Of a stretch of 64,000 nucleotides of DNA, positions 7,230 through 12,584 are shown in pieces. The position numbers were made by a program, and so were the translations under genes. Each line of letters starts with the position of its first letter. The stretch's first letter is position 1. The notes beneath the pieces were generated by a model. That model was not told the DNA's origin and did no database searches. It worked only from the letters and a program-made list of their open reading frames with translations. The stretch comes from Candidatus Poseidoniaceae archaeon (GTDB lineage: Archaea > Thermoplasmatota > Poseidoniia > Poseidoniales > Poseidoniaceae): the NCBI GenBank assembly GCA_938075675.1, contig CALJHE010000006.1:1-64000 (forward strand). Reading direction: 5' to 3'.

Positions 7230-9035
7230 TCAGTCGAAATAAAGTGAGTAATCTTCACTCCAATCGACGGCTGTCGCCCTGAACCACTCTTCGGCAGAAT
7301 CAAACGCTTCTTGCCCGGGATTCTTTCTTTTACGCTTGGCCCGCTGGGAAATGAGTTTCCAAGCTGTTTTCTCACCGATTCCTGGAATCGCTTCTAACTG
7401 CTTTTGAGAGACTTTTTCTGCATGAAGACCAGTTTCAACTCCAGTAATCGAACGTGCACCGTGTCCAGTGACGATGACTGAGGATTGAGTTTCGAGAGGA
7501 ATGTGGTATTCTACACCAATAAGGATCGGGTAAGCACCGATTTGCCGGCCAAAGGTGATGCCGGCTTTACCTCTACATGACTCCGCAGTGTGGTCTTCAC
7601 CGAGGTGTGCAGTGAGCCGTGTTCGTCCATCATGCGTCTCCCAATGCACATCGGATAATTTTTCACCCAAGGGGAATAACTCCTCGAGAAGTGGCCCATC
7701 AATGGTGTCTCGAACATTGGTTTTGAACATGTTGAATGCTTTTTGAGGTATGTCTTGGAATCCTTCGCCTTCGACCTGCCGAATGTTGATTCGGCGCAAC
7801 AACAGGCCTTCACGACGGATTTCATGGAGCAAATCAAGATTCATCTGGTAACTGGATTCGGTTTCTCCGTTCAATCCTGCAATGAAATTGAGTCCAGGTA
7901 GCAACTTTGGCAGCCCTCTTTCCCCACGAACCGATCCATACTTGTTGATCAATCGAATCGCTGACTTGAGTTGCGTGGGGTCGCAATTAAGCCAATTTGC
8001 CTCATGAACTGAAGGGTCTGCCGATTCAAGACCAAACGAAAGTACGGCGCCATCAGACAGCGTTTCCACGAGTGTTTTGGTTATTGCTTCGGATTCTTCG
8101 AGGTTTTCAGCGATTATGGAAGGGTTTCCGTTATCGGTATGGAGGATTCCCAGTCGCTCATCGTTACGCAACCCGTGTAAAAGCTGTGCAATCGGCTCAG
8201 GGTTTGGGACTGGATATTCCATTTCCTTAACGCCGTCTGCCATATAGGTGTAGGTATCGGTCATGCCTCCAAGTCGTACATGTTCGACGCCTACATCGTG
8301 CGCTCGACGTACTTCCTCGATGATATCTTCAGGTGTCCGCCATATCGGTATGCCCTTCTTTGGTTCTATACAGAATTTACATCCACGTTTGTAACGCACG
8401 CATCCTTGGTACACTTCCACTTCGTAGGTGAGCGGGCCTTTCTTGTCTTCAGTACCGAGGTCTGGGTGCGTAGTGACTGCTTTACTTGCTGCTCCAGCCT
8501 GGGCCCAATTTGTCCATTGTTCGGCATTTCTTCGAGTATGCTTCCATTCTCCGGTTTTGAGATACGTGTGCAGTGTAGCATCTGTATCTTGAACGGCCAA
8601 AAAGAGGTTTTTCCTCAACGGCGTCCAACCTTGTTGCCTCCAACCACGGATGGCCCATCCACCAAAGAGTGCAGGGATGCCATGTGGGAGGTCGCGAATT
8701 AAGTTTCGAGTCTCCTTCAAGGACAACGGTGTTCCACGAAGATAGCGGCCCGGAACGACTGCCCCAGCAATACAGGCAAAACCTTCCACCGCTGCAAGTC
8801 GATTTCTAGCCCAATCCTCGCCATGCTGGCGAATGAAGTCCCGCCATTGGTCGATGGTAAAGTAATCATAGTCGATTTTCGCTTCTTCGAGGACACCACA
8901 GAGATACCGGATATGAAATCCGACATAGGGCGGAACTCCAAATGCAGCCGGTTCGTCTTCATAGCCGTCAAGAATCAGCCATTTGGGTGAATGCTGTTCG
9001 ACCATGTTGGCTAACCTCGATTCGGTTGCCTTCAA
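7230..9035 (-). CDS. Radical SAM protein with C-terminal helix-hairpin-helix domain
   Basis: A 601-residue radical SAM enzyme of the group annotated as radical SAM superfamily enzyme with C-terminal HhH (COG1031-like). The N-terminal ~200 residues resemble a cobalamin-binding-like region that may lack the cofactor. The [4Fe-4S] site is CVRYKRGCKFCIEP near residue 213, with CX6CX2C spacing rather than the common CX3CX2C. The C-terminus has a DNA/RNA-type HhH (LEAIPGIGEKTAWKLISQ near 545) and a basic linker. The start overlaps the stop of the Csl4-like gene by four bases (ATGA, 9032-9035), indicating translational coupling. An inner Met (ATG 9005, MVEQHSPKW) is possible. The substrate is unknown; a nucleic-acid modification role is inferred from the HhH and neighbours. 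Confidence 0.85.
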   Translation of the reverse strand: MKATESRLANMVEQHSPKWLILDGYEDEPAAFGVPPYVGFHIRYLCGVLEEAKIDYDYFTIDQWRDFIRQHGEDWARNRLAAVEGFACIAGAVVPGRYLRGTPLSLKETRNLIRDLPHGIPALFGGWAIRGWRQQGWTPLRKNLFLAVQDTDATLHTYLKTGEWKHTRRNAEQWTNWAQAGAASKAVTTHPDLGTEDKKGPLTYEVEVYQGCVRYKRGCKFCIEPKKGIPIWRTPEDIIEEVRRAHDVGVEHVRLGGMTDTYTYMADGVKEMEYPVPNPEPIAQLLHGLRNDERLGILHTDNGNPSIIAENLEESEAITKTLVETLSDGAVLSFGLESADPSVHEANWLNCDPTQLKSAIRLINKYGSVRGERGLPKLLPGLNFIAGLNGETESSYQMNLDLLHEIRREGLLLRRINIRQVEGEGFQDIPQKAFNMFKTNVRDTIDGPLLEELFPLGEKLSDVHWETHDGRTRLTAHLGEDHTAESCRGKAGITFGRQIGAYPILIGVEYHIPLETQSSVIVTGHGARSITGVETGLHAEKVSQKQLEAIPGIGEKTAWKLISQRAKRKRKNPGQEAFDSAEEWFRATAVDWSEDYSLYFD

Positions 9036-10459
9036 TCCTTCTTCTCACGTCGACGTCGAGGACGCTTTTTTGAATCCTCTTCCTCTTCACGGAGTGCTTG
9101 GAGTTCACGGGATGATTTACCATCTGAGTTGTCAGAACCGCGCTTTCCACGGTTGTTGCCGCCTTTCTTACCGCCTTGCGACACATCAACCTTGATGCGC
9201 CGGCCGAGCAATTCAGAGCCGTTGAGTTTGGAGACGATTTCTTCACCCTTGTCCATTTCCTTGATGAAGGCAAATGCGAATCCCTTTGGTTTTCCGTCAC
9301 CACTGGTCGCAACAACAAGTCCGTTGACGGTTGCGATACCGTCAAACATGGCTCGAATGTTTTCTTCAGTTGCTTTGAACGGTAGATTTCCAATGTAGAG
9401 TTTGAGTCCTTCTGGGTCCTTGCGCTTTTCTCGCTTGCCCTTCTTGTCATCGCTGTCAGCATCTCGCACGCCGATCTTACGGCCGTTGATTTTGTGGCCA
9501 TTGAGTTTTTCAGCAGCAGCATCAGCTTGTGATTTTTCAGAGTAGGTGACGAAACCGAATCCTCGGTTGACACCGTTATCATCGGTCAACACAATACAGT
9601 CGGTCATATCGCCGTGCTCAGCAAACAATGCTCGGAGTTCTTCTGTTCCAACTTCACGTGGTAGGCCACCGACGAACAATCGGCAACCAGGTGCGTTTCG
9701 AGGACGGCGTCCTTTGCCACCGCTCTCGCCTTCGAACCGGAAGTATGTGCGCTCACGACCGTCTTCGCGTACATCTGCGGCGATGAAGGTTGCTCGACCT
9801 GCAGGTCCCTTGCCAAACATTGCTTCTGCAGCAGCGCCCCAGCGCTTGCCGGAGTTGTTGAGTGAACTTGCTCCTTGCTCTACTTCAGCCCATCCTGCGC
9901 CGTAGTTGTCGGCAAGGGCTCGATAAGATTGGTAATTGCATGTTGGGCATCGGACGTTCCAGTCGCCTTCGAGTTCAGGTATCAACACATCACCACACGG
10001 TGGGCAGATTGCATGGAGTACGCCGCAGTCATCACGGTCTCTGAAACTGATTCGAAGAACAGGAGATGTTTCTTTGACTTCAGCCCGACAGACATCCCGT
10101 CGTCGAACGGCGTCCGCAGTTTGATGCATGTATCGGTCCACAATTCCCGTAACGTGGAATTGACCGTAGAGGTGTTCAGGCAGAACGCTACCTGGCTTGC
10201 CTTCAATGCAAAGAACTTGAGCCTCTCCATTCTTTTCGTTGAGTTTGACAATTTCACAAAGTACGGTATCGCCGACTTCTGGTGTGACAATTTCTTTCTG
10301 AGCGGCAACGATTGCGATGCCGTCTTGAATTGAAAACATTCCAGTTGCGGTTGCTAAAATCGATCCATTGACTTCAATGGTTCCATCTCCAGCCTCGCAT
10401 TCTGATGAGGTAGATACTTGTGTTCCGGGAGTGACGAGGCTCGGCGTCATATTTTTCAT
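9032..10459 (-). CDS. Csl4-type exosome subunit fused to two RRM domains
   Basis: Starts like archaeal Csl4, the exosome cap protein that recruits RNA to the phosphorolytic core: VTPGTQVSTS and GTIEVNGSILATATG (N-terminal domain), then an S1-like barrel with VGDTVLCEIVKLNEKNGEAQV and RISFRDRD. A zinc ribbon follows, CPPCG ... CPTC. Unlike ordinary Csl4 the protein continues with two RNA-recognition motifs. RRM1 has RLFVGGLP and RGFGFVTY, RRM2 has LKLYIGNLP and KGFAFAFI. A basic, glycine/lysine-rich tail ends KRPRRRREKKD. ATG 10459 (MKNMTPSLVTPG) was chosen because this matches where Csl4 proteins begin. An upstream in-frame GTG at 10525 would add 22 unrelated residues and lies at or before the inferred transcription start; ATG 10450 is also possible. 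It is coupled to the radical SAM gene by an ATGA overlap. Confidence 0.82.
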   Translation of the reverse strand: MKNMTPSLVTPGTQVSTSSECEAGDGTIEVNGSILATATGMFSIQDGIAIVAAQKEIVTPEVGDTVLCEIVKLNEKNGEAQVLCIEGKPGSVLPEHLYGQFHVTGIVDRYMHQTADAVRRRDVCRAEVKETSPVLRISFRDRDDCGVLHAICPPCGDVLIPELEGDWNVRCPTCNYQSYRALADNYGAGWAEVEQGASSLNNSGKRWGAAAEAMFGKGPAGRATFIAADVREDGRERTYFRFEGESGGKGRRPRNAPGCRLFVGGLPREVGTEELRALFAEHGDMTDCIVLTDDNGVNRGFGFVTYSEKSQADAAAEKLNGHKINGRKIGVRDADSDDKKGKREKRKDPEGLKLYIGNLPFKATEENIRAMFDGIATVNGLVVATSGDGKPKGFAFAFIKEMDKGEEIVSKLNGSELLGRRIKVDVSQGGKKGGNNRGKRGSDNSDGKSSRELQALREEEEDSKKRPRRRREKKD

Positions 10460-10531
10460 TCCTGTAGCAAACATGGCCTGATGTAGGTCGCATGCTGTTT
10501 CGCTTGATTGAACCGGTGTGTTCACCCCTTT

Positions 10532-11218: not shown

Positions 11219-11434
11219 TCACCAGCGGGGCTGTTGATTGTACTGGTTTTGCTGGTACTGCTGTTGTTGCTGTTGTTGCGCAAGAGCTTGGGCTTGTAGG
11301 CGCATGTAGTGAATTTGTTCTGCCTCGTGCCGAAGTCGAGCAAGCAACTGATCTCCGGGTTGTTGATTTCCACAAAATCTGCAGAACCGAATGCCATCTT
11401 GGTGTTGTTGTCCGCAACTGATACAGAATCCCAT
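11219..11434 (-). CDS. Small zinc-ribbon protein with glutamine-rich tail
   Basis: A 71-residue protein. The first 25 residues form a double CxxC zinc ribbon (CISCG and CRFCGNQ, residues 4 and 18 onward). A helical arginine/alanine region follows, then a glutamine/asparagine/tyrosine-rich tail with a run of seven glutamines. ATG 11434 (MGFCISC) is chosen because it starts directly at the zinc ribbon and sits after the preceding gene. A longer upstream extension in the same frame overlaps that gene and looks non-coding. It precedes the METTL5-like gene by four bases, so the two are probably co-translated. Zinc ribbons of this type bind nucleic acid or protein; the partner is unknown. The low-complexity tail is unusual for such a short archaeal protein. 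Confidence 0.65.
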   Translation of the reverse strand: MGFCISCGQQHQDGIRFCRFCGNQQPGDQLLARLRHEAEQIHYMRLQAQALAQQQQQQQYQQNQYNQQPRW

Positions 11435-11480
11435 GCGCTTGCCTCCATACTGTCCTTGGGTCGAATCAACTTGAACCTTC

Positions 11481-12584
11481 TCATTGCATGGATGCCAATT
11501 GCAGGAACACAGGCCATGTTTCGAATCCTTCCGCAGCTGCTCTTTCGTTGAGGTTTTCCCAACGAGGGTCATCCATGATATCAGACGCAGCAACACCAGC
11601 GGCCAACAGTCCAGTCACAAGTTCACGGAACTCACGCTCGACTTCAGACATTTCAGGTTCGGGTTCTGGCTTAGGTTCCGGAATTGGAATGCTTGTTGGA
11701 GTTTCTTCAACCGCAGTTTCAGCAGGCAGGTTCATTTCGACTGGCGTTGGTTCAGTTTCCGTCACCTGGGAGCCAGGTGGCAGAGGGACAAAGGCGTGTT
11801 CGACAACTTCCGGCGACGTTTCAACTTCAAGTTCTGCTGCCGGTAACTCCACGTGTTCAGTGCCTCCATGCCCCGTATCTTCAGTCATTTCAGCAAGCAT
11901 GTTTGTTGAGAAATCATCCATCATTTCATCCATGTTCGCTTCGGACTTTTTGGTCTTCACCGGTGGCGCAACTGGGATGTCTTCGGGTGCAGCTTCTGTT
12001 ATTTTCACCTTCTTTTGAAGTCGGCCAACACCCAATACTTCTGCTTGTTGTCGAGCAAGTTCCGCAGCTTGGCGCCGTGGCAGGCTGACGAAACATTTCC
12101 CCGGTACAGAGGCCGGAGGGAAGGGGAGGAAATAGGTCTCAAGAGGTGGCAAGGACGGGTGACGGAAGCATAGAATCCTCTGCGACTCGAAAGCCCGTTG
12201 ACTCGGCAAATTCATTGAGAACGGTACTGGAGAAATCTGAATCGAACTGCGTAACCACTGTTCGTTGGTGATGAGGTGCTGCATCCATGGCCCCAAATCA
12301 GGGCTTGCTAAGTCAACGAATTGAAACGAAGCATCTCGAGGGTTGAAGTTTTGCTTTTCAAGCAAAGGTGCCTCTTGCCGAGGTCGGTGGAATACGGTGA
12401 GTACGGGCTGACCATGCTCGACCATATCGCCGTGCAATTCCATGAGTTTGCGCTCTTTACGAGGGCACATGAGAAGAATGAGCATTCGAGCAGCATTCTC
12501 GTCCCAAATTTCTCCCCATCGAGCCTCAGCCTCGTTGGTGAGTTGTCCAAGTGTCATGTCTGGAATCATTGCAGTAATACCCAT
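11481..12584 (-). CDS. Uncharacterised protein with acidic proline-rich linker
   Basis: Not recognised. The 367-residue protein has a globular N-terminal half (about residues 1-185) containing ARWGEIWDENAARMLILL and an aromatic/proline-rich segment. A basic helix (RRQAAELARQQAEVLG) comes next, then a long acidic, proline/glutamate-rich low-complexity linker with PEPKPEPEPE. The C-terminal ~50 residues form a small helical module (FRELVTGLLAAGVAASDIM ... EGFETWPVFLQL). No signal peptide or membrane helix is visible, so it is probably cytosolic. ATG 12584 is preferred over 12617 because a GCATAAAT box sits near 12619. It leads the operon with the zinc-ribbon, METTL5-like and Csl4-RRM genes, which suggests, but does not prove, an RNA-related role. 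Confidence 0.6.
   Translation of the reverse strand: MGITAMIPDMTLGQLTNEAEARWGEIWDENAARMLILLMCPRKERKLMELHGDMVEHGQPVLTVFHRPRQEAPLLEKQNFNPRDASFQFVDLASPDLGPWMQHLITNEQWLRSSIQISPVPFSMNLPSQRAFESQRILCFRHPSLPPLETYFLPFPPASVPGKCFVSLPRRQAAELARQQAEVLGVGRLQKKVKITEAAPEDIPVAPPVKTKKSEANMDEMMDDFSTNMLAEMTEDTGHGGTEHVELPAAELEVETSPEVVEHAFVPLPPGSQVTETEPTPVEMNLPAETAVEETPTSIPIPEPKPEPEPEMSEVEREFRELVTGLLAAGVAASDIMDDPRWENLNERAAAEGFETWPVFLQLASMQ

Follow-up and report, generated by a model that had tools for sequence, protein, structure and literature searches.

Introduction

To our knowledge, little is understood of substrate choice by the archaeal exosome, apart from a preference for poly(A) shown by Rrp4 and DnaG. In known exosomes, Csl4 is held on the Rrp41/Rrp42 ring by its N-terminal, ECR1_N-type domain. 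The Poseidoniales (Marine Group II), the subject of this work, are abundant archaea of the ocean surface. Canonical archaeal Csl4, as represented by AF_0206 of A. fulgidus (PDB 2ba1/3m7n), consists of an N-terminal domain, an S1 domain and a zinc ribbon, and stops shortly after the last of these.

Two described systems come closest to the arrangement reported here. According to Hou et al. 2014 (PMC4227792), DnaG requires Csl4 for its interaction with the exosome, and the C-terminal domain of DnaG plays an important part in its binding to the Csl4 exosome. When the RNA-binding domain of DnaG was artificially fused to the C-terminus of Sulfolobus solfataricus Csl4, the product bound poly(A) strongly and sped the exosomal decay of A-rich RNA (PMC4227792). 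In humans, the RRM of RBM7, a protein that binds U-rich RNA (PMC4417160), and a zinc finger of ZCCHC8 flank the RNA entry site of the NEXT complex and feed the exosome (PMC9278407).

The present analysis concerns a gene in a 64,000-nucleotide stretch of a Candidatus Poseidoniaceae genome (contig CALJHE010000006.1, positions 1 to 64,000; hereafter, the window), in which Csl4 is continued by two RRMs. This Csl4-RRM fusion is real, conserved and single-copy across one order of marine archaea. No description of RRMs in Poseidoniales or of a natural Csl4-RRM fusion was found in the literature searched, which took in only a minority of subscription journals, and the fusion is apparently undescribed so far. 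Below, f1 denotes the family containing the window, f2 the order's other family (probably Thalassarchaeaceae, the other family that NCBI lists in the order) and f3 a sister family in the same class.

Architecture of the Csl4-RRM-RRM gene

The gene, its parts and its two immediate neighbors are as follows:

9032 to 10459, minus strand: Csl4-RRM-RRM fusion gene of 475 codons and a stop; frame open to 10525, with the ATG at 10459 as the likely start
9899 to 10438, minus strand: Csl4 region (N-terminal domain, S1 domain and zinc ribbon); NF034126, 2ba1_A
10337 to 10438, minus strand: Csl4 N-terminal domain (ECR1_N, PF14382); all 78 sequences keep TPG and the G residues
9938 to 10006, minus strand: Csl4 C-terminal zinc ribbon, Cys152/155/171/174, all four conserved
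9689 to 9898, minus strand: linker; conserved GKRW..EAEA...DxRxDGR block, then a disordered Gly-rich stretch
9473 to 9679, minus strand: RRM1, PF00076 at 73.2 bits; RNP2 RLFVGGLP, RNP1 RGFGFVTY
9191 to 9400, minus strand: RRM2, PF00076 at 44.2 bits; RNP2 LKLYIGNLP, RNP1 KGFAFAFI
9035 to 9175, minus strand: basic Gly/Arg/Lys-rich tail with a conserved [ST]xRELxA..EE helix
10561 to 11214, minus strand: METTL5-like small methyltransferase gene (PF05175), directly upstream of csl4; conserved neighbor
7230 to 9035, minus strand: radical SAM + HhH protein gene (PF04055), directly downstream, abutting/overlapping csl4 by 4 bases

An initial sequence-only reading had proposed that one protein carries Csl4, two complete RRMs and a basic tail, and this is borne out by NF034126, by two PF00076 matches and by the fold. 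The frame is intact, encoding 497 aa from a GTG at 10525 or 475 aa from the ATG at 10459 (ORF check). NF034126, the NCBIfam equivalog for Csl4, matches aa 8-187 along profile positions 2-179 with 101.7-104.8 bits against a cut-off of 90. Both RRMs exceed the Pfam cut-off for PF00076 (20.7 bits) in a search of the DNA, a protein-level profile search returned two RRM_1 domains with E = 1e-31 for the whole protein, and the RNP2/RNP1 pairs quoted in that reading were located at aa 260-267/299-306 and 352-360/392-399. The tail has a net charge of +6.8 and the two RRMs of -3 and 0; as the RRMs themselves are non-basic, RNA affinity may depend on the tail.

The exosome-anchoring region at the N-terminus is likewise recognizable, as judged from the PF14382 match (23 bits in the window protein, below the 27-bit cut-off, and 28.9 bits in a same-family relative), the alignment with 2ba1 and the invariance of TPG/GxG/G in 78 sequences. 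A PDB sequence search aligned A. fulgidus Csl4 (2ba1_A) with window residues 8-189, nearly the full length of the Csl4 part, at 2.3e-15, and 2ba1_A was also the top Foldseek match of the predicted model (3.1e-16, TM 0.66 by target), followed by the tandem RRMs of Sxl, HuD, HuR and hnRNP A1. The AlphaFold2 model has a mean pLDDT of 76; the Csl4 domains and both RRMs are well ordered, and confidence is low at the joints (aa 223-255, 337-346 and 429-447); pLDDT falls below 50 in the linker at aa 223-255, and the tail helix is modelled at aa 450-465.

The METTL5-like, zinc-ribbon and radical SAM genes that had been named as neighbors are all present at the locus. The order METTL5-like, csl4, radical SAM recurs in the f2 loci examined and, in f1, at almost every one of 80 loci, and the canonical csl4 of f3 is also adjoined by a METTL5-like gene. 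This shared gene order indicates an ancestral csl4 locus to which an extension was added, not a new paralogue. The radical SAM + helix-hairpin-helix gene lies beside csl4 in both families of the order. Upstream of csl4, at 11219-11562 of the window, lies the gene for a small zinc-ribbon protein whose tail is Gln-rich (QAQALAQQQQQQQYQQNQYNQQPRW); this gene is found beside csl4 in 35/80 related loci.

Copy number and distribution

A second, ordinary Csl4 elsewhere in the genome combined with the lack of a recognizable exosome-binding domain at the N-terminus, or else an assembly fault, had been named beforehand as grounds for refuting the reading; the computational checks of these points did not refute it. 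A Csl4 profile search found no second Csl4 in the window's genome, where the runner-up is Rrp4 at 32.6 bits, and none in the single-contig chromosome CM001443.1 of a relative, where the next match is again Rrp4 (28.7 bits) and which carries the Csl4-RRM fusion itself. Neither genome has an RRM_1 match beyond the fused RRMs. The idea that assembly or gene calling merged two genes has next to no probability; nothing was found in its favor, and the identical fused frame is shared by all 78 f1 sequences of the alignment, recurs in f2 and is seen in CM001443.1 as well. The join is not an artefact, because it recurs across the order's genera and on one complete contig.

In a survey of 295 Thermoplasmatota genomes at least 80% complete, RRMs were found in 100/101 Poseidoniales genomes, comprising 55/55 genomes of f1, with at least two matches each, and 45/46 of f2, with one match in nearly all. 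The RRM matches listed for the order all lie inside long Csl4-type frames (256-598 aa), and in the Csl4 loci first inspected Csl4 runs on into the RRMs without a break in the frame, except where the contig ends. In the order's sole RRM-less genome (G015), the Csl4 model finds no more than a weak match (1.7e-9), and csl4 is therefore probably missing from that assembly. Beyond what the sequence-only reading had noted, the fusion is an order-wide, ancient trait, and it has two module layouts.

Outside the order, the listed RRMs are all solo frames of 81-136 aa. Such small stand-alone RRM proteins occur in 13/188 genomes outside the class and in 6/6 genomes of f3, so that the expected rarity of RRMs in archaea holds for Thermoplasmatota in the sense that they are uncommon, but not that they are absent. 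Stand-alone RRM proteins of f3 are seen at G295:C1:2220-2432 and at L050, L054, L057 and L060. Also as the sequence-only reading had supposed, Csl4 normally ends after its zinc ribbon outside the order within Thermoplasmatota, the canonical frames elsewhere in the phylum being mostly ~185-270 aa. Long Csl4 frames (369-511 aa) in other families of the phylum were considered as further fusions and rejected; the eight examined are products of upstream read-through, with Csl4 at the C-terminal end and an RRM in none.

A second layout in the other family

In f2, the linker block common to both families comes next after Csl4, then a treble-clef zinc finger of the pattern CxxC-x17-CxxC, and finally a helix and a single RRM. 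The zinc finger, lying between linker and RRM, corresponds to PF23477/TIGR04272 (e.g., aa 264-298 of the protein at L027:772-2070). A hidden second RRM in the ~120-aa spacer of f2 was considered and rejected, the spacer being this zinc finger. Common to the two families are the linker, which is confined to Csl4 of the Poseidoniales order, and an RRM, while the middle module differs.

Origin of the RRMs

The RRMs of the Poseidoniales fusion are of the same subtype as the stand-alone, bacterial-type RRM proteins described by NF058537 (Rbp_regulator), with the window protein scoring 92.2 bits, below the 100-bit cut-off, and a relative in another f1 genus scoring 144 bits. The NF058537 proteins are free and of ~80-130 aa, whereas the Poseidoniales RRMs are fused to an exosome subunit. 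In an unrooted tree of 62 RRMs over 83 columns, a short data set in which long branches meet, a supported branch (98/89) separates all RRMs of the order (f1 RRM1, f1 RRM2 and the f2 RRM) from the solo RRMs of archaea, those of bacteria and those of yeast PAB1. A eukaryotic origin was rejected on this separation from yeast PAB1 (98/89; tree unrooted, data short). It is plausible that the solo RRM protein of f3 represents the ancestor type of the fused domains. The simplest history, weakly resolved and with the root unknown, would be a single capture of an f3-like, bacterial-type solo RRM followed by duplication in f1.

Conservation and selection

In an alignment of 78 f1 sequences, numbered by the window protein, the RNP aromatic positions F262, F301, F303, Y355, F394 and F396 show no variation among the sequences that have the region. 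The anchor residues T10, P11, G12, G24, G26 and G40, the zinc-ribbon residues C152, C155, C171 and C174, and the linker motif GKRWG are all found in 78/78 sequences, and the tail residues R451, E452, A455 and E458 in 77/77 sequences having the tail. Order-wide, C152 and C171 are invariant, and C155 and C174 nearly so. One Csl4-RRM protein (L091:5112-6548, genome G064) has lost two of its four zinc-ribbon cysteines (CSNS...CHTS).

Median dN/dS against the window sequence, computed from unsaturated pairs only, is 0.035 for RRM1, 0.076 for RRM2, 0.073 for the Csl4 core, 0.066 for the linker and 0.30 for the tail. RRM1 is under no weaker selection than the Csl4 core, and the invariant RNP residues together with the low dN/dS imply that the RRMs are maintained as strictly as Csl4.

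The rest of the exosome machinery

Elsewhere in the window's genome, contig C14 encodes Rrp4, Rrp41 and Rrp42 in a row, as in the classical operon, with SBDS-like and proteasome alpha-like genes just upstream (read from their translations). Rrp41 passes its curated model, and Rrp4 and Rrp42 match their own models below curated cut-offs. The Csl4 of the order is also diverged, at 105 bits versus ~150-205 for the best phylum members listed. DnaG is encoded on contig C19 (364.5 bits against a cut-off of 300), keeps its N-terminal KY residues and is present in nearly all order genomes searched. In the window's genome the main match to the DnaG model covers positions 1-278 of 419, in most order genomes searched about the same stretch (L180:1551-2732), and in 2/3 f3 genomes positions 1-418; the shorter match indicates that the C-terminal domain has diverged. 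By these scores, the Poseidoniales exosome is present but diverging as a set.

The same genome encodes a third RNase PH-fold protein outside the window (G000:C10:34730-35554, plus strand; L086:1731-2555), which passes the bacterial-type RNase PH equivalog TIGR01966 (244.8 versus 141.5 bits). An RNase PH in addition to Rrp41 and Rrp42 is unusual in an exosome-bearing archaeon.

Proposed function and competing explanations

The fusion is probably the sole exosome Csl4 of Poseidoniales, permanently extended with a C-terminal RNA-binding arm that recruits RNA to the cap. From the features described above we infer cap incorporation, RNA binding and recruitment along the following lines. The N-terminal domain would seat the protein on the Rrp41/Rrp42 ring, and the S1 and zinc-ribbon domains would form part of the cap. 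The flexible linker would then give the RRMs reach, allowing them and the basic tail to capture single-stranded RNA and concentrate it locally at the pore, where the captured RNA could undergo 3'-5' phosphorolysis or tailing. With up to three Csl4 subunits per cap, up to six RRMs could be displayed. Such an arm, already suggested in the sequence-only reading, would fit all the evidence, with the artificial Csl4 fusion as its precedent.

It is conceivable that the extension instead docks the exosome on the ribosome, nascent transcript or RNA polymerase, where the RRMs would bind either a partner protein or an RNA of structural type. One of the best sequence matches is cS22 of the chloroplast 30S subunit (5x8p_v, 4.5e-20), which places an RRM pair on the ribosome, the conserved tail helix [ST]xRELxA..EE resembles a protein-docking motif, and contacts between proteins can also involve RRMs (PMC9887622). 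The invariant RNP residues, however, are of the RNA-contact type, and docking overlaps with recruitment in any case, since cytoplasmic archaeal exosomes are near ribosomes anyway; we regard it as unlikely. A different departure, in which Csl4 has left the exosome to become a free RNA-binding protein or RNA chaperone and the cap is homotrimeric Rrp4, would account for the strong divergence of the order's Csl4 and for a DnaG C-terminal domain that lies outside the main model match (1-278 of 419) in most order genomes, and exosomes with homotrimeric Rrp4 can be reconstituted (PMC4227792). This is decidedly unlikely, given that the anchor residues are invariant, that purifying selection acts strongly on the Csl4 core (dN/dS 0.073) and that DnaG is kept; moreover, the divergence of Rrp4 and Rrp42 points to a whole complex drifting together.

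An RRM arm and DnaG would share both job and place, and the RRMs could accordingly be imagined to bind poly(A) at the cap in place of a DnaG that has been lost. With the exosome core and DnaG all present, DnaG well above its cut-off (364.5 versus 300 bits) and with KY kept in the window's genome, and found in nearly all order genomes searched, replacement is refuted and highly improbable, though the two may overlap partially in function.

Recruitment by a built-in arm suggests that Poseidoniales choose the RNAs they destroy with it. A bolder extension, possible although we give it somewhat less than an even chance, is a self-targeting nuclease with a sequence-selective RRM arm in cis, the counterpart of RBM7/NEXT, whose modules were swapped between f1 (RRM-RRM) and f2 (zinc finger-RRM). 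As the modules differ in this way, the transcripts degraded may not be the same in the two families. Here, classical RNA-recognition domains are hard-wired into a core exosome subunit and are the only detectable RRMs of the genome studied, which makes for a clean, small test system for cis-acting RNA targeting to the exosome.

Comparison with known systems

Poseidoniales Csl4 shares the N-terminal domain, S1 domain and zinc ribbon of the canonical archaeal protein but continues for ~290 more residues. Like the Sulfolobus Csl4-DnaG(NTD) construct, it places an RNA-binding-type domain at the Csl4 C-terminus, and it can be regarded as nature's counterpart of what has been engineered in Sulfolobus. 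That fusion is a laboratory construct with an unrelated domain, whereas the one in Poseidoniales is natural and ancient, uses RRMs and coexists with DnaG. The resemblance to NEXT (RBM7, ZCCHC8 and MTR4), which pairs an RRM with a zinc finger as the f2 Csl4 does, is one of analogy and not homology, and is drawn for mechanism only. NEXT is a separate cofactor that acts in trans with a helicase, while the Poseidoniales architecture has no RRM-only adaptor and carries its domains in cis on a core subunit of the cap.
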